Shown in pieces: positions 222-6,883 of a stretch of 32,226 bases of DNA (positions within the stretch are counted from its first letter, which is position 1; each line of letters begins with the position of its first letter). Made by a program: the position numbers and the translations under genes. Source of the DNA: Phycisphaerales bacterium (GTDB taxonomy: Bacteria; Planctomycetota; Phycisphaerae; UBA1845; G020352895); assembly GCA_020352895.1 (NCBI GenBank), contig CP070685.1:2999433-3031658 (forward strand). Reading direction: 5' to 3'. The notes under the pieces were generated by a model. That model saw only the letters and a program-made list of their open reading frames with translations, did no database searches and was not told where the DNA came from.

Positions 222-2084
222 CTACCGGGCTCCCTCTGCAAAGGTTCCCGCGGCGTCCCCCATCGGCTCCATGTCGGGCGGGACCGGGAGCCGCCGGCCC
301 ACGCCGGCAAAGCGATGACGCTCCTGGCTGGCCGTTTGTACACGGGCAAGGCGAGCTTCGGCCGGTTCGCTTCCTGCCCGGCCGGCCGCGGCCATGTCCT
401 CGCGGCCCCGTTCCTGCCTTAGTGTTTCCACGGCACCCTGTAGGGTGGCTTCGTAGTTCCCCCTGCGCTCGCCGGCAAGCTGCATGTCCGTAATCAGAGC
501 AGCATGCGCCGGCTCCTCAAAGCCGGATATGAAACCTGCCAAATCGTATTCCCGCTCCGGTCGACAAGCCGAGCAGAATTTGGAAACAATTCCCGCCAAA
601 GCTTGGTCCGAAATTTCCTCCGGTTTCAGGTAAGGGCGCGCCGCCTCCAAATGTTCCGGGGCGTTGAGCAACACTTCCATGATTTCCCGGACAGCGGCGT
701 CTTTCGCACCTGTCGCAGGTCGCACCCCTGAAGGGATTCTGGTTGCTTCGGTTGTCAGGCCTCGGCGGCTCTCCTGACGCTTGAGTTCGTTCAGGTGCCG
801 ATAAACCTCTTCAGCCGGAAGCGCGACAAGCTTGCTGATGCGGTTTACGATGAACCCCAGATGGACGGGATCGATATTCCGCCGGACCATCGACCGGGCG
901 ACAAGGTCCAGAAAGCTGCGAGCGGCTCGGTAACTCTCCGAAGCTCCCGCCGAACCGGCCGCAGCATTCCGCAGCTGTTGCCACTTGAATTCTAGCGCCT
1001 CGGGGGCCGAGTTCAACAGTGCTTCAAAGCTCTCCGGCCCGGCCGTAAGGAGATAGTCACAGGGGTCTTTCGCTTCCGGGACTCGGGTCAGCCGTACGGT
1101 CATGGCCTCGGCCAGGGCTGCCTCCAGGGCCCGCTCGGCGGCGCGTTGCCCGGCCTCGTCCGAATCGAAAACCAGAATCGCTTCGTCGCAAAAGCGGTGC
1201 AGGAGCTTGGCCTGATCGGCCGTAAAACTCGTGCCCAGGGCTGCGACCACGTTGTCAAACCCGAACTGACGGACCATCAGACAGTCCATATACCCCTCGG
1301 TGACCACGGCTCGCCCTGTGCGGCCGATCGACTCCCGGGCCAGATCCAGTCCGAACAACTCGCGTCCTTTGTTGAACAGCGGAGTCTCCGGCGTGTTCAG
1401 GTACTTGGCCGGATCGTCACCGAGCGCCCGCCCTCCAAAGCCGATAATCCGCTTCGATGAGTCGCGGATTGGAAACATGAGGCGGTTTCTGAACACGGCG
1501 TACGGCTTGCCGGACTCCGACGTGCGCGCCAGACCGGCGGCCGAGAGCAGCCCGGGCGAGTACCCTGCGGCCTTACCCTGAGCCACGATCAGGTCGTAGC
1601 TGTCCGCAGCAAAGCCCAGTCCGAACCGGGTGACCGTCTCGTCTGTGACTTGACGGTTGGCCACATAAGCGCGGGCTTCCCTTCCGCGCGTCTCATGCCT
1701 CAACTGTTCCTGGAACCACCTCGCTGCCCATTCGTTCACGCGGGCCAGCATGGAGCGGCCGGGCCCCCTCTGTCCGGCGCCGTCCGAGCGTGGGGCCAGC
1801 GCAATCCCCGCCCTGGCCGCCAGGATCCTCAGCGCCTCGCCGAAGTCCACGTTCTCGCGGAGCTGGACGAACTTGAAGACGTCGCCGCCGACTCCGCAGC
1901 CGAAGCACTTGAATATCTGCTTGGATGGGTGAACGTGGAAGGACGGCGTTTTCTCGTCCTTGTGGAATGGGCACAGGCCTTTGAACCCGCTGCCTGCGCG
2001 CCTCAACTGCAGGTGCTCGCTGATCACGTCAACGATGTCGCTGGCCTGACGTACTCGTTCAATGTCCGATTGCTGTCGCGCCAT
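222..2084 (-). CDS. dnaG: DNA primase DnaG
   Basis: DnaG makes the RNA primers for chromosome replication. Numbered from the chosen ATG at 2084 (620 residues), the CHC2 zinc-binding motif has ligands C38, H41, C60 and C63. The primase core contains KYLN near 228, the TOPRIM glutamate in VVTEGYMD (E263), and the TOPRIM aspartates in DSDEAG (D307, D309). The rest is a helical C-terminal region expected to bind the DnaB helicase. An upstream GTG at 2108 would add 8 residues (MHIVGRGL). I prefer the ATG because the protein then starts [12 protein letters not shown] as in the family, and a GAGG stretch sits 5 nt upstream. A strong promoter lies about 130 nt upstream, and rpoD follows downstream. 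The last roughly 60 residues are Ala/Arg/Pro-rich and poorly conserved in appearance. DSDEAG replaces the more usual DGDxAG, but the metal-binding aspartates are kept. Confidence 0.96.
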
Positions 2085-2161
2085 CAGCCCTCGGCCCACA
2101 ATATGCACGTGAGAGCACTGCCCTGATTGTGTTCAGTGACACATTAAATTGGCTTTCTAGG

Positions 2162-2399: not shown

Positions 2400-2663
2400 T
2401 CAGGCCAGCACCACCTTCGTGACTTGGGGCACTTTCTCTTTAAGTATCCTCTCGACGCCCTGGCTCAGCGTCATAGAGGCCGACGGGCAGCCCACGCACG
2501 CCCCGTGGAAGCGGACCTGCACAACGCCTTCCTCGCTCACGCTGACTAGCTCCAGATCGCCGCCGTCCCCCTGGATGGCCGGCCGGATCGCGTTGATGAC
2601 CTGGGCCACCTGCTCTCTCAGGGACTGACTCTCGGGTGCCGGGGAATCGGGTGGTATGGACAT
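2400..2663 (-). CDS. NifU C-terminal domain-like iron-sulfur scaffold protein (Nfu type)
   Basis: This small protein (87 residues from the chosen start) carries GACVGCPSASMTL, the C-x-x-C signature of the NifU C-terminal/Nfu domain, which binds a [4Fe-4S] cluster between subunits and passes it to client proteins. The flanking IRPAIQGDGGDLELV segment is also typical. Two starts are possible. An ATG at 2711 gives 103 residues with an AGGA 9 nt upstream. The ATG at 2663 has GGAGGT 8 nt upstream and begins right before the conserved domain (MSIPPDSPAPESQSLREQV), so I prefer it. The gene reads toward dnaG on the same strand, but a promoter lies between them, so co-transcription is optional. No other Fe-S assembly genes are near. 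The family is clear; the specific client proteins are unknown. Confidence 0.92.
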   Translation of the reverse strand: MSIPPDSPAPESQSLREQVAQVINAIRPAIQGDGGDLELVSVSEEGVVQVRFHGACVGCPSASMTLSQGVERILKEKVPQVTKVVLA

Positions 2664-2671
2664 CAGGCCGG

Positions 2672-2677
2672 ACCTCC
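2672..2677 (-). promoter_or_regulatory. Shine-Dalgarno site that decides the NifU-like start
   Basis: On the minus strand GGAGGT lies 8 nt before the ATG at 2663, inside the longer reading frame that begins at 2711. It is stronger than the AGGA before the 2711 ATG. Both starts may be used, but the internal one looks better. Confidence 0.55.
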
Positions 2678-2711
2678 GTCGTAGGACTTCAAGGGTTTGC
2701 GGTTGTGACAT

Positions 2712-3244
2712 TGGTCATCCTAGGTCCAGATGAAGCTGGGGGCAACCGCAGCCCGACCGGAGGATGACTTGGCCGCGGGGCCTGGGACTCGTGTGAAGCC
2801 GGAACCTCGCCCTCTTTCGGAGCCGTTGCCGCTGATCAGGGCTCCCCCTCCGGGGCATCGCCGACGCCTGCGGCAGGCTCCCTAACCTCCTGTGGCCGCT
2901 CTAATTCCTCCAGTCCGCGACGTCTGAGAGGGTCTCGAAAGGTCTAGCTGGCTCACTGGTCTGGTGATTGCTCGAGCCTCCAGAAAGGGTCTTCCTCCCG
3001 GCCCGGGATTATCGCCCCGCCCCCTCGGGGCTCCCCGGCCTTGCGGGCTGGAGGGTCCTTTTTGCTCCAAAAACTAGCGCCTTTGACCTTGACCACAGGG
3101 GGGCCAGGACTAAACTTTTCGCGCCGCGGGGCGACGACTCTGTGGCTCCGCAGGCAAAAGCCTTGAGAAAATCGGTTTCTCGGCGATTGTGTCCTGCGGT
3201 CTGGCCGCTAGATCCCGCAGCCCAAGCGGGAGACGGGCGCATGT
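2712..3244. other. Non-coding stretch between the NifU-like gene and the acidic protein gene
   Basis: No convincing gene is visible on either strand in about 530 nt, and I recognise no known structural RNA (no RNase P, SRP RNA or tmRNA signatures). It holds a GCCTG-CGG-CAGGC hairpin (2866-2878), a CCCCG/CGGGG hairpin near 3015-3029, a GAGAAA-ATCGG-TTTCTC stem-loop (3165-3181) and a candidate promoter at 3089-3116. Confidence 0.5.
3089..3116 (+). promoter_or_regulatory. Candidate promoter for the acidic/basic protein pair
   Basis: TTGACC (3089-3094) and TAAACT (3111-3116) are separated by 16 nt, predicting a start near 3123 and a leader of about 140 nt. The leader would contain the 6-bp stem-loop at 3165-3181. 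The sequence match is moderate only. Confidence 0.35.
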
Positions 3245-3262
3245 GTGGATGAGGGATGCATG

Positions 3263-3565
3263 ATGGCTAGCGGGTATGATGGTTTGGGTTCAGAGGATTT
3301 CAATCCCACCCTGAGCAACCTGGATGTGTTTTCGCTGGATGAGTCCATTCTTTGCGTGGTCGGCGAGGACGGCCGGGCCCGCCCCTGGGTCGATCCCCTG
3401 TTGTCGCCCACGGACGACGATGACGACGACGATCTGTACGACGACGAGGATGACGAGGACCTGGACGATTTCGACGACTTCGATGAAGATGACGAGGACT
3501 TCTTTGACGACGATGAGGACCTCGACGAAGATGAGGATGACCAGGATGATGAGGAAGGGTTCTGA
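3263..3565 (+). CDS. Small protein with an extremely acidic C-terminal half
   Basis: I do not recognise a family. From the ATG at 3263 the protein has 100 residues. The first half (MASGYDGLGSEDFNPTLS and following) is ordinary and includes VVGEDGRARPWVDPLLSP. The last roughly 50 residues are almost entirely Asp/Glu (about 39 of 50), with Leu, Phe and Tyr spaced between. GAGGGA lies 6 nt before this ATG. A GTG at 3245 or an ATG at 3260 would add 6 or 1 residues. The coding DNA of the tail is a GAC/GAT/GAG run that could slip in replication. The RNA polymerase delta subunit also has an acidic tail, but its winged-helix domain is absent here. The next gene, 36 nt downstream, encodes a strongly basic protein, so the two may pair by charge. 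That is inference. Confidence 0.7.
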   Translation: MASGYDGLGSEDFNPTLSNLDVFSLDESILCVVGEDGRARPWVDPLLSPTDDDDDDDLYDDEDDEDLDDFDDFDEDDEDFFDDDEDLDEDEDDQDDEEGF

Positions 3566-3601
3566 TCGTCCCATTCGCTAAGGGAAGGCTCCCCGCATCG
3601 C

Positions 3602-3943
3602 ATGAGTTCAGCCGAAAACAATGACCAGGGCGTCCAGCCCAGGGCTGGCGAACCCACCGGGCCGGATCGCCGCAAAGGTGATCGGCGCGCTCCCGTCGAT
3701 CGGCGCAGCGGTCTGGAGCGGCGGCGGGGACCCGGCCGACGTCGCGGGGACATCAGACGAGCGGCGGAAGAGGGTGAAATCACCGACGACCTTCTCGAGT
3801 TCGTCATGGCCGTTGACGAGTACAAGCGCGTCAACAAGAAACCCTTCCCCTCCTGGTCCGAAGTGTTTGAGGTGATTAAATATCTCGGCTATCGCAAGGT
3901 GGCCGAACGGGGCACCCACATCGACAGGCCCGCCCCCGAGTAA
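3602..3943 (+). CDS. Small protein with Arg-rich head and conserved helical tail, function unknown
   Basis: The protein has 113 residues. Residues 22-53 are a basic repeat of DRR/ERR/GRR units (PDRRKGDRR, VDRRSGLERRRGPGRRRG). Residues from about 58 onward (EGEITDDLLEFVMAVDEYK, PSWSEVFEVIKYLGYRKVA) look like a folded, mostly helical domain. I recall similar proteins with this two-part layout as hypothetical proteins in planctomycetes, but no function is known to me. The tail resembles a small winged-helix-like fold in its PSWSEVFEVIKYLGYRK segment, which is only an impression. The start ATG at 3602 has AGGGAAGG about 15 nt upstream. The gene lies 36 nt after the acidic protein gene, and the two are probably co-transcribed. 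A nucleic-acid or acidic-protein binding role for the head is plausible. Confidence 0.8.
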   Translation: MSSAENNDQGVQPRAGEPTGPDRRKGDRRAPVDRRSGLERRRGPGRRRGDIRRAAEEGEITDDLLEFVMAVDEYKRVNKKPFPSWSEVFEVIKYLGYRKVAERGTHIDRPAPE

Positions 3944-4009: not shown

Positions 4010-4039
4010 TTGGGCCTTCCGGTGGCATCAGCGTACAAT
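4010..4039 (+). promoter_or_regulatory. Candidate promoter for the tilS operon
   Basis: TTGGGC (4010-4015) and TACAAT (4034-4039) are 18 nt apart, giving a start near 4046. The element sits inside the longest open frame of tilS (which can be read from a TTG at 4010), so it argues for a later translation start. Confidence 0.45.
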
Positions 4040-4102
4040 CTTTCGGCCCGGCAAGTGTGCCGCGGCTCTGATCCGCGCGACCAACTTGCCCTCACCGGGA
4101 GC

Positions 4103-5551
4103 GTGTCCTTGGGTGAGCCCGACTTGCCAGCTCGACTCGCAGCCTATATCCGGGCGCAGAATCTCGTCCTCCCCGGCGCCGAGGTGGTCGTCGGTGTCTC
4201 AGGCGGGCCGGATTCAACAGCCCTGCTGCACGCTCTGGCGGAATTGGCCCCGCGGGAGGACATGGGTTGGAAGCTGCACGTGGCTCATCTGAACCACCAG
4301 CTTCGCGGAGAACACTCCGACGCCGACGCCGAGTTCGTACGCCAAGCGGCGCGTCGCTTGGCTCTGCCCTGCACCATCGGCAAAGCTGCCTTCCACAACG
4401 CCGGCGGCCCGTCCGCGGCGCCAGGTCTTGAGGAAACCGCTCGCCTTCGCCGCTACGAGTTTCTGGAGCGCGTCTGCCTGCAATGCGATGCTGACGTCCT
4501 GGCCGTCGGCCATCATGCCGACGATAACGCCGAGACCATCCTGCACCATATCGCTCGGGGCACGGGACTGCGCGGCTTGCGCGGCATGATGCCCATGCGC
4601 CCACTCGGCCCCGGTAGTCGCGTGCGACTGGTCCGCCCAATGCTGGGCTGTCGCCGCACCGAGATCATGGACTTTCTGGATCGCCGGCGCATCGCGTATC
4701 GAGTGGACGCGAGTAACCAGAGCCTGACTCATACGCGTAACCGCATCCGCCACGAAGTGCTTCCTTTGTTAGGCGAGTCCATCAATCCCCAGGCCACCGA
4801 GGCCTTGCTCCGTCTCGGCGAGCAGGCCCGATGGGCCGAGGATTTCGTCCATGAGGTTGCCAGTCGATCGCTCGAGGCGGCGACCGTTCGCCGCACCGAG
4901 GAGGAACTGATTCTGGCTCGGCATGCCCTGGCTGAGCGGCCGCGCATCATACAGTTCGAGGTCATTCGCCAGGCTGTGGCCGGCTTCGGCCTGGGAGAAC
5001 GGAGCGTGGGTTTCGTCCACCTGGCGTCCGTGAGCGATCTGCTGGCAGGGGCGCGCCGTAGCGCCACCGTGGAGTTGCCCGGGGGAATGCGGGTGCGACG
5101 TGACGCCGACCATTTGACATTCACCGCAACCACCCCGGAGGATGACGGACCGCCCCTGCCCGAGCTGCCCGTGGCCATTCCGGGGGCCACGGTCATTCCG
5201 GGAACCGCCTGGGTAATCGAGACGCAAGTTGCTCCAACAAGCCCCGATACCGCCCACGTGCCGTGGCCAACCGGCCCAGGGCAAGAACGCCTGGACTTCG
5301 ACCGCTTGACCTTGCCGCTGGTGGTCCGTGGTGCTCGGGCGGGTGACCGCTTCGTCCCGCTGGGTGCGCCCGGCCACAAGAAGGTCGCCGACTTTTTTGT
5401 CGATCAGAAGATACCGCCACAGCAGCGGCGTCGGACCCCGATCCTGTGTGACCGCAGCGGCCCTTTGTGGGTCATTCCCTATCGAATCGACGAGCGCGTG
5501 AAGGTGACGGATCGGACCACCCGGCTGTTGATGGTGGCGGCGCGGAGTTGA
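4103..5551 (+). CDS. tilS: tRNA(Ile)-lysidine synthase TilS
   Basis: TilS uses ATP and lysine to change the wobble cytidine of the CAU anticodon tRNA-Ile to lysidine, so that it reads AUA. From the GTG at 4103 (482 residues) the N-type PP-loop SGGPDS is at 33-38. It is followed by LNHQLRG and by HHADDNAETILHHIARGTG, typical of the family. The C-terminal TilS domain ends in ARAGDRFVPLG, KKVADFFVDQKIP and WVIPYRIDERVKVT. The frame is open from a TTG at 4010, but that region holds a promoter-like element. Starting at 4103 places the PP-loop at the usual distance from the N-terminus. A TTG at 4109 has a better-spaced GGGAG, so the exact start is uncertain. The next gene begins 3 nt after the stop, pointing to an operon. 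Confidence 0.95.
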   Translation: MSLGEPDLPARLAAYIRAQNLVLPGAEVVVGVSGGPDSTALLHALAELAPREDMGWKLHVAHLNHQLRGEHSDADAEFVRQAARRLALPCTIGKAAFHNAGGPSAAPGLEETARLRRYEFLERVCLQCDADVLAVGHHADDNAETILHHIARGTGLRGLRGMMPMRPLGPGSRVRLVRPMLGCRRTEIMDFLDRRRIAYRVDASNQSLTHTRNRIRHEVLPLLGESINPQATEALLRLGEQARWAEDFVHEVASRSLEAATVRRTEEELILARHALAERPRIIQFEVIRQAVAGFGLGERSVGFVHLASVSDLLAGARRSATVELPGGMRVRRDADHLTFTATTPEDDGPPLPELPVAIPGATVIPGTAWVIETQVAPTSPDTAHVPWPTGPGQERLDFDRLTLPLVVRGARAGDRFVPLGAPGHKKVADFFVDQKIPPQQRRRTPILCDRSGPLWVIPYRIDERVKVTDRTTRLLMVAARS

Positions 5552-5554
5552 GCC

Positions 5555-6883
5555 GTGGCCACGCCAATGCAAACAAGCGACCGAGAGGTGGACCTGAAGG
5601 CCACGGGTTCCGCCGCGTGCGCAAAGCGCAGAGCCCTGAGCTGGTCGCCCTTGCTTTTGGTCTTTCTCCTGGGCGCCGGGCTTCGGTGTGGGTGGGTGGC
5701 CGGCCAAACAGGCTGGCGAGACGGTCCTGAATCGCTGGCTTTTGCGGACGAGCGCGATTACTGGAGCATGGCCGCCTCATTCGCGGCGGGTCAGACCATG
5801 GTCGATCAGGACGGTCTGGCCGCCGCGCGCATGCCGGGCTACCCCCTGTTCCTCAGCGTGTGGCTGCACTCCGCCTCCCCGGTTCTGTTCGCCAAACTTG
5901 CCCAGGCCGTGCTCGGCGGAGTCGGTTGTGTCGTCTGTGCGCTCATCGCTTCGCGTGTGGGCGGACCTGTGTTGGCTTGGATTGCCGGATTGCTCGCCGC
6001 GTTGGATCCGTTCGCCATCCTCTTTGCCAACCTTCTGCTCAGCGAGACGCTCTTTACGACGGTCCTCGCCTTGTTCATGTTCGCTACAATCACCCTGTGG
6101 GAACGTGCCGATACTCCGCCGGCCCACCGAGCGGCTGGACCCAAGAAGTCGTCCCTATGGCGATGGGCCCTCTGGGGTGCGAGCTTCCTGGTATGCACCT
6201 ATCTGCACCCTTCGGTGGTGCTGCTACTTCCTCTCGCCGGTTTGCTGCTTGTTCTTCGTCACCGCACGTGGTCTCATCTGGGAGGGTTCGCCGTTGCCCT
6301 GATCATCGTTGTGATCGGTCTGGCTCCATGGTCCCTGCGAAACCACCGAGTCCTCGGCGGCCGCTGCCTGCTGAGCAGCCGGCTGGGAATTTCGTTGTAC
6401 GACGGCGTCGGCCCGAAGGCTGACGGTCGCAGCGACCTGGCCTATACGCGGCAGATTGCCGACGTGAGGGGATTGGACGAGCTGGGTAAGAACAGATGGT
6501 TCCTGCAGCGCAGTCTGGAGCATATCCGCGCCGAACCGGGGCGAATCCTGAGGCTGGCGGGTCGCAAGCTGCTGCTCACGTGGAACGTCGTCCCCAATCT
6601 GGAAGCACACCGCTCCGCGGCCGAAATGCTGGTCAGTGCCGCCTGGATGGTCCCCGCGCTGATCCTGGGGGTGGCCGGCTTGCTGGCGCCGGGGCCGAGC
6701 CGCAGCACCTGCGCGCTTTTGCTTCTGCCCGTGGCCTACTTTACCCTCCTGCACATGTTGTTCGTGGGCAGCGTTCGCTACCGGACGCCCGTAATGCCCT
6801 ATGTGGAGGTGCTGGCCGCCGTCGGCCTTCTGCTGGTCGCCCGCAGCATACGCCCCAGGACGGGCCGGCCTTCTGTGTGGTAG
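5555..6883 (+). CDS. GT-C type membrane glycosyltransferase (ArnT/PMT-like)
   Basis: This is a 442-residue integral membrane protein with about ten hydrophobic segments, the first at about residues 30-48. After it comes a loop with FADERDYW (D65, E66), matching the Asp-Glu motif in the first outer loop of GT-C transferases such as ArnT, Pmt and the 'dolichyl-phosphate-mannose' family. ARMPGYPLF follows near 91-98, as in that family. Such enzymes move a sugar from a polyprenyl-phosphate carrier to lipid or protein on the outer face of the membrane. The donor and acceptor cannot be read from the sequence. The start is a GTG at 5555, 3 nt after tilS; an ATG at 5567 is an alternative. The following AsmA-like gene starts 6 nt after the stop, so envelope biogenesis is a fitting context. 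Confidence 0.85.
   Translation: MATPMQTSDREVDLKATGSAACAKRRALSWSPLLLVFLLGAGLRCGWVAGQTGWRDGPESLAFADERDYWSMAASFAAGQTMVDQDGLAAARMPGYPLFLSVWLHSASPVLFAKLAQAVLGGVGCVVCALIASRVGGPVLAWIAGLLAALDPFAILFANLLLSETLFTTVLALFMFATITLWERADTPPAHRAAGPKKSSLWRWALWGASFLVCTYLHPSVVLLLPLAGLLLVLRHRTWSHLGGFAVALIIVVIGLAPWSLRNHRVLGGRCLLSSRLGISLYDGVGPKADGRSDLAYTRQIADVRGLDELGKNRWFLQRSLEHIRAEPGRILRLAGRKLLLTWNVVPNLEAHRSAAEMLVSAAWMVPALILGVAGLLAPGPSRSTCALLLLPVAYFTLLHMLFVGSVRYRTPVMPYVEVLAAVGLLLVARSIRPRTGRPSVW

Follow-up and report, generated by a model that had tools for sequence, protein, structure and literature searches.

Across much of its class, the planctomycete gene B is preceded by a second small gene, A, whose product ends in a long stretch made mostly of Asp and Glu. 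An A-type gene lies directly upstream of B, on the same strand, at 98 of the 126 assessable distinct loci of the class, and this linkage is well supported. B itself carries an arginine-rich stretch ahead of a small core. We tentatively propose that the acidic tail of A acts as a nucleic-acid-mimicking chaperone or antagonist for the arginine tail of B, A and B forming one functional unit; we give this just short of an even chance. The binding of A to B, the affinity of B for nucleic acid and the direction of regulation are what we infer. The features of the locus, with positions counted in the window (the whole stretch analysed, 32,226 nucleotides), are given in Table 1.

Table 1. Features of the A-B locus and neighbouring genes in the window
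Feature	Position	Strand	Basis or remark
DnaG primase	222-2108	-	Window neighbour
NifU-domain protein	2400-2711	-	Window neighbour
Sigma-70-like promoter match upstream of A, weak	3089-3116	+	Consensus match only (9/12)
Gene A, small acidic protein, 100 aa	3263-3565	+	ATG 3263, stop 3563-3565
A acidic tail, residues 51-98	3413-3556	+	Composition count
A acidic tip with terminal Phe (DEEGF-COOH; A ends DDEEGF)	3548-3562	+	Sequence
A-B spacer with purine-rich RBS-like stretch	3566-3601	+	Sequence, by eye
Gene B, small protein, 113 aa, ATG 3602	3602-3943	+	ORF; one match in own genome
B arginine-rich stretch, residues 21-53	3662-3760	+	DRR/ERR units, GLERRRGPGRRR element
B core, residues 62-99, two predicted helices, PFPS loop, LGYRKV end	3785-3898	+	Model and comparison
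TilS	4010-5551	+	Window neighbour

The earlier note had described A as ending in about 50 mostly Asp/Glu residues and had placed the two genes 36 nt apart on one strand. Both statements are accurate: 39 of the 48 tail residues are Asp or Glu, and A ends at 3565 while B starts at 3602. The densest 30-residue stretch of A holds 24 Asp/Glu residues, against at most 18 (with 4 ORFs reaching 15) in a comparison set of 404 non-nested ORFs of at least 60 aa, drawn from the window and from 400 kb of its genome; A itself is absent from this set, a longer antisense ORF having been taken in its place. Halophilic acidity was rejected as the cause of the tail, since the sampled ORFs of the genome are not acidic in the same way. 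An antisense ORF (3208-3837) overlaps the A frame, and the differences between tails of related A genes, of which 244 out of 320 fall at codon position 3, favour the A frame over it. Other possible starts of A are ATG 3260 and GTG 3245. With the E limit set to 1, Pfam gave no match to the window A, and its single NCBIfam match was composition-like (E 0.029) and far under the cut-off of that family. The + strand of the spacer gave no terminator match. Together with the promoter-like match ahead of A, this is consistent with one transcript, which proves little.

B was said in the earlier note to be very basic and to begin with Arg-rich DRR/ERR units. The Arg-rich stretch is real (14 of 33 residues are Arg), although it begins at about residue 21 and not at the very start, and the strong basicity applies to the first 60 residues (pI 11.4) and not to the whole protein, which is moderately basic (pI 9.7, 25 Lys and Arg versus 21 Asp and Glu). 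The remainder of B has a pI of 5.8, and the tail itself is mixed in charge, with Asp and Glu interspersed among the arginines. The AlphaFold2 model has two confident helices (residues 62-78 and 85-94, pLDDT 93-97), whereas the first 60 residues, including the Arg stretch, are of low confidence (pLDDT 53-67). What the B family shares most widely is its core, some 40-45 residues long, in which LGYRK stands close to the end; this core is also present in other classes of the phylum. Different tails sit on this same core: within the class they show DRR/ERR units together with the common GLERRRGPGRRR-like element, and elsewhere other Arg units. Three relatives from other classes (L157, L160 and L166) have Lys/Ala-rich tails resembling bacterial H1-like proteins, the core remaining constant.

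For B, neither Pfam (E limit 1) nor NCBIfam gave a match. Its sequence found nothing closer than E 0.84 among solved structures, and Foldseek with the model returned nothing at E of 0.001 or below and no nucleic-acid-binding fold; its best match, to histone H4 chains (E 0.76), is not significant and was not used. Matches of PPL5 to B were weak (13 of 102, best 4e-4) and absent from ten members that were rescanned.

The reference count of 98/126 comes from 130 distinct class loci chosen by B alone, 4 of which were not assessable. An A-type ORF was defined by at least 15 Asp/Glu in 30 residues, or by a match to a profile of the DUF2007-like domain described below, and had to lie on the same strand and end within the 900 bp that precede the B core. 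The 130 loci comprise 43 with domain and acidic tail, 50 with the acidic tail alone, 5 with the domain and a weaker tail and 28 with neither. Among the first 103 loci the count was 84/100. No acidic ORF was found in the control zone downstream of B (0/94) or on the opposite strand upstream of it (0/149). An earlier, narrower count gave an A-type ORF in 71 of 85 loci with room for one versus 2 of 549 non-nested background ORFs, the filter on the background being stricter than that on the zones. Adding 20 loci chosen for having A, which the reference count leaves out, gives 117/145 (54 with domain and acidic tail, 50 with tail only and 13 with domain and weak tail).

The linkage also holds when read from A. 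DUF2007-type A was called strong in 85 of the 198 class genomes, and adjoins B (upstream, same strand) in 74 of the 77 of them with a listed B; in the remaining three, A and B lie on separate contigs, and the stretch beside B in one of these three (G049) could not be judged. B is present in 84 of the 85 genomes with strong A and in 87 of the 113 others (Fisher test, P = 3e-6, the genomes being related). The other neighbours are mostly not shared. Clustering of neighbours at 100 B loci returned B itself at 100, its antisense shadow at 77 and the next cluster at 27, and apart from A no neighbour recurs at more than 27 of the 100; the A domain was recovered by BLAST at 26. DnaG, the NifU-domain protein, TilS and the ORF at 5555-6883, all detected in the window as positive control, were each found beside B at 0/100 loci. 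The pair therefore holds amid mostly changing surroundings.

Relatives of A were located by their position next to B; with an E limit of 1, a search with the N-terminal half of A matched 15 of 61 genomes, its own genome ranking first and the rest having E values of at least 0.07. A is missing in part of some families (3 of 9 loci in f4, 6 of 10 in f8, and 7 of 7, one of them short, in f18), and families f15 and f18 have no A at any locus read.

B is much more widespread than the pair. It was found in 171 of the 198 genomes of the window's class, that is, in most sampled genomes of a large class, yet it belongs to no Pfam or NCBIfam family. In the order sample it was matched in 59/61 genomes, and in 48/48 of those of good quality; the window genome, a single contig of 3.6 Mb, is rated 67% complete, and most genomes of this sample exceed 90%. 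An earlier, narrower profile detected B in 221 of 391 genomes of the phylum. Numerous genomes of other classes (e.g., G082, G103 and G152) have two B matches each, and there may be a B paralogue in these classes, judging from the matches. One further genome has two B-like matches at G041:C62:38268-38864, each lying in an open frame of 253 aa; the two may represent a tandem fusion.

A scan across all phyla, queried with two patterns closely resembling the B of the window, yielded 268 relatives, the best 80 of which were all titled planctomycete except two. Clear B genes are present in two records titled Candidatus Binatota and Alphaproteobacteria (L065 and L092), which are probably mislabelled planctomycete assemblies. 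The phage search gave no B match and the plasmid search a single one, from a planctomycete: a B-core-like protein (L196:1541-1924) on plasmid pOJF2_2 of Aquisphaera giovannonii, annotated as hypothetical protein. B-core-like proteins also occur at 5 loci on contigs of a viral collection (L173:2881-3156, L174:2887-3129, L175:2869-3201 and L171 and L172, both 3001-3198), the last two of which appear identical. One B-bearing contig of this collection measures 436 kb, and a PHROGs scan beside the loci gave 1 match among 7 neighbours.

Outside the class, A was seen at none of 40 loci chosen for B, so that only one partner is conserved there. The expectation that the genes stand side by side in planctomycetes consequently applies to much of the class and not to the other classes. 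B would be the older protein, to which A was apparently added at the level of the class. The tail of B is as positive without A as with it: its median net charge in the class is +7 at loci with A (n = 106, not deduplicated) and +8 where A was not seen (n = 16), with no difference between the two (Mann-Whitney, P = 0.58), and +6 in other classes (n = 34). This indicates that the Arg tail was not made for A. The interpretation that had been offered for the pair, a physical partnership suggested by opposite charge and likely co-expression or an acidic partner holding a nucleic-acid binding protein in check, is half confirmed: the linkage stands in much of the class, and the tail charges speak against charge matching.

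To assess selection on the tail of A, related A genes were compared in 12 pairs; one pair lacked tail codons, and two genes entered more than one pair. Differences at codon positions 1, 2 and 3 numbered 43, 33 and 244, respectively, and 219 of the 275 changed codons were silent or exchanged Asp and Glu. Judged from these alignments, the tail is under selection for acidity and not for sequence. Strong negative charge maintained by selection, as in DNA-mimic proteins, is thus what the A tails display. Their end behaves differently. An acidic end capped by a hydrophobic residue is present in 56 of the 116 A proteins, the window A included; the sole correction for relatedness was the removal of near-identical tails. 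Shuffled tails gave a mean of 16.5 and a maximum of 32 (2000 shuffles), and background ORFs 4/287. Such a tip is also frequent in A proteins with a weak tail (14/21). Unlike the rest of the tail, the tip is not free to vary.

Many relatives of A have a folded domain ahead of the tail. Of 35 A domains from relatives, 27 matched DUF2007 (PF09413) at E of 0.1 or below (best 1.8e-7). Two full-length DUF2007 matches were genuine, and the higher-scoring one stayed under the curated cut-off (21.8 versus 25.7 bits). The DUF2007-like domain was detected in 101 of the 198 class genomes at E of 0.001 or below, and neither in the window A nor elsewhere in its genome. The single relative modelled (L040) has a beta-alpha-beta-beta-alpha domain, a candidate for the ferredoxin-like half fold of DUF2007, with blocks at pLDDT 92-95 and one loop block at 68, and reached E 0.075 against 2hfv, a structure that we take to be a DUF2007 member. 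The best Foldseek match of this domain, to secretion-ring domains (E 0.0015), was set aside as merely a common small fold. Families f14, f17, f102 and f104 have the domain with a short tail, f99, f100 and f6 the domain with a long tail, and f3, f4, f9, f11, f12 and f16 the tail only. On the B tree, which is weak (about 100 columns), the distribution of the domain takes at least 11 changes. As far as this tree can tell, A probably began as a folded domain followed by a short acidic end and finished as the tail alone.

We suggest the following mechanism. B would be a flexible basic tail gripping nucleic acid or another polyanion, its two-helix core serving as an anchor to itself or to a partner, and A would be its dedicated acidic partner. 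The disordered Asp/Glu tail of A would imitate the nucleic-acid backbone and fill the arginine stretch of B, so that B stays in solution, or away from nucleic acid, until it is required; the terminal hydrophobic residue of A could set the register in which the tail docks. In the ancestral A, a short acidic end would have followed a DUF2007-like domain, the tail lengthening and the domain being lost in several lineages; loss of the domain while the tail grew would make the tail the working part of A. Several points stand against this mechanism: B has its Arg tail also without A, 28/126 loci have no nearby A (as have all loci read in families f15 and f18), the B tail is mixed in charge, Foldseek found no nucleic-acid-binding fold for B, and the tree behind the order of events is weak. 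In a bolder version, a folded DUF2007-like adaptor was repeatedly lost across the class, and what was kept is a free acidic ligand of degenerate sequence with a fixed hydrophobic tip. This ligand would be dedicated to B, a two-helix protein found throughout the phylum whose basic tails are interchangeable, and would be comparable in bacteria to the acidic histone chaperones; we consider this version possible but doubtful.

A and B could instead be cotranscribed and serve the same process without touching each other, the tip of A docking, for instance, on a third protein and B binding RNA, DNA or the ribosome. The frequency of the acidic-hydrophobic end, including its presence in weak-tailed A, and a B tail charge that is independent of A agree with this, whereas the fixed adjacency amid mostly changing surroundings and the near absence of strong A without B suggest that A depends directly on B; we regard separate action as unlikely. 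A freely varying sequence that only has to stay acidic, together with very variable tail lengths, would also suit a charge effect on metal ions or a solubility tag unrelated to the tail of B, the adjacency reflecting shared regulation. The constrained end of the tail, and the fact that the tail still adjoins B where the folded domain is not seen, speak against such a role, which we hold to be quite improbable. The tail is, finally, a low-complexity run of Asp/Glu codons, and might be a non-functional codon-repeat expansion paired with B by accident. The strong bias of changes toward the third codon position (43, 33 and 244) and the recurrence of the tail in many families of the class, against controls of 0/94 and 0/149, already largely refute this, and its probability is minimal.

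If A does tame B, the pair would offer a compact model of a disordered, purely acidic tail selected as the partner of a basic protein, and a way into the question of how planctomycetes organise their nucleic acids. What interests us most is the probable change of A from a domain plus short acidic end to a bare tail. The A-B pair was not found in the open-licence papers searched, which is weak evidence of absence because only such papers were covered.

Among described proteins, a candidate identity for B, compared by description only, is the PVC signature protein CT421.2, a small protein of unknown role that is reported to be restricted to PVC bacteria and longer in planctomycetes (PMC3444138, PMC7203096, PMC2474590). 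One of these sources describes it as an L30-like small RNA-binding protein (PMC7203096), a poor fit, when description is set against model, to a B core modelled as two helices. In addition, 27 of the 198 class genomes gave no B match. The window B, being Arg-rich, also lacks the Lys/Ala-rich tail of histone H1-like nucleoid proteins. FYDLN_acid (PF09538) is a family with an acidic region; the A of one relative matched it at chance level (E 0.26), and the window A gave no match. DUF2007 itself, named a putative prokaryotic signal transducing protein, resembles the domains of the relatives of A, which here come with an acidic tail and stand beside B. The bacterial single-stranded DNA binding protein (SSB) has a disordered acidic tip with a terminal hydrophobic residue, which docks on other proteins. 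A likewise ends in acidic residues and a hydrophobic one, in a sequence that differs from the SSB tip; only about 50 residues precede its tail, and the window A has no Pfam match, to an OB-fold or any other DNA-binding domain. Neisseria DMP19 is a folded protein, whereas in A the active part would be a disordered tail, and the gene for A adjoins that of its proposed target. DMP19 is reported to be a DNA mimic that can disturb DNA binding by HU (PMC5722371), and we propose that A works in the same mode, by competing with DNA for a protein that binds it.
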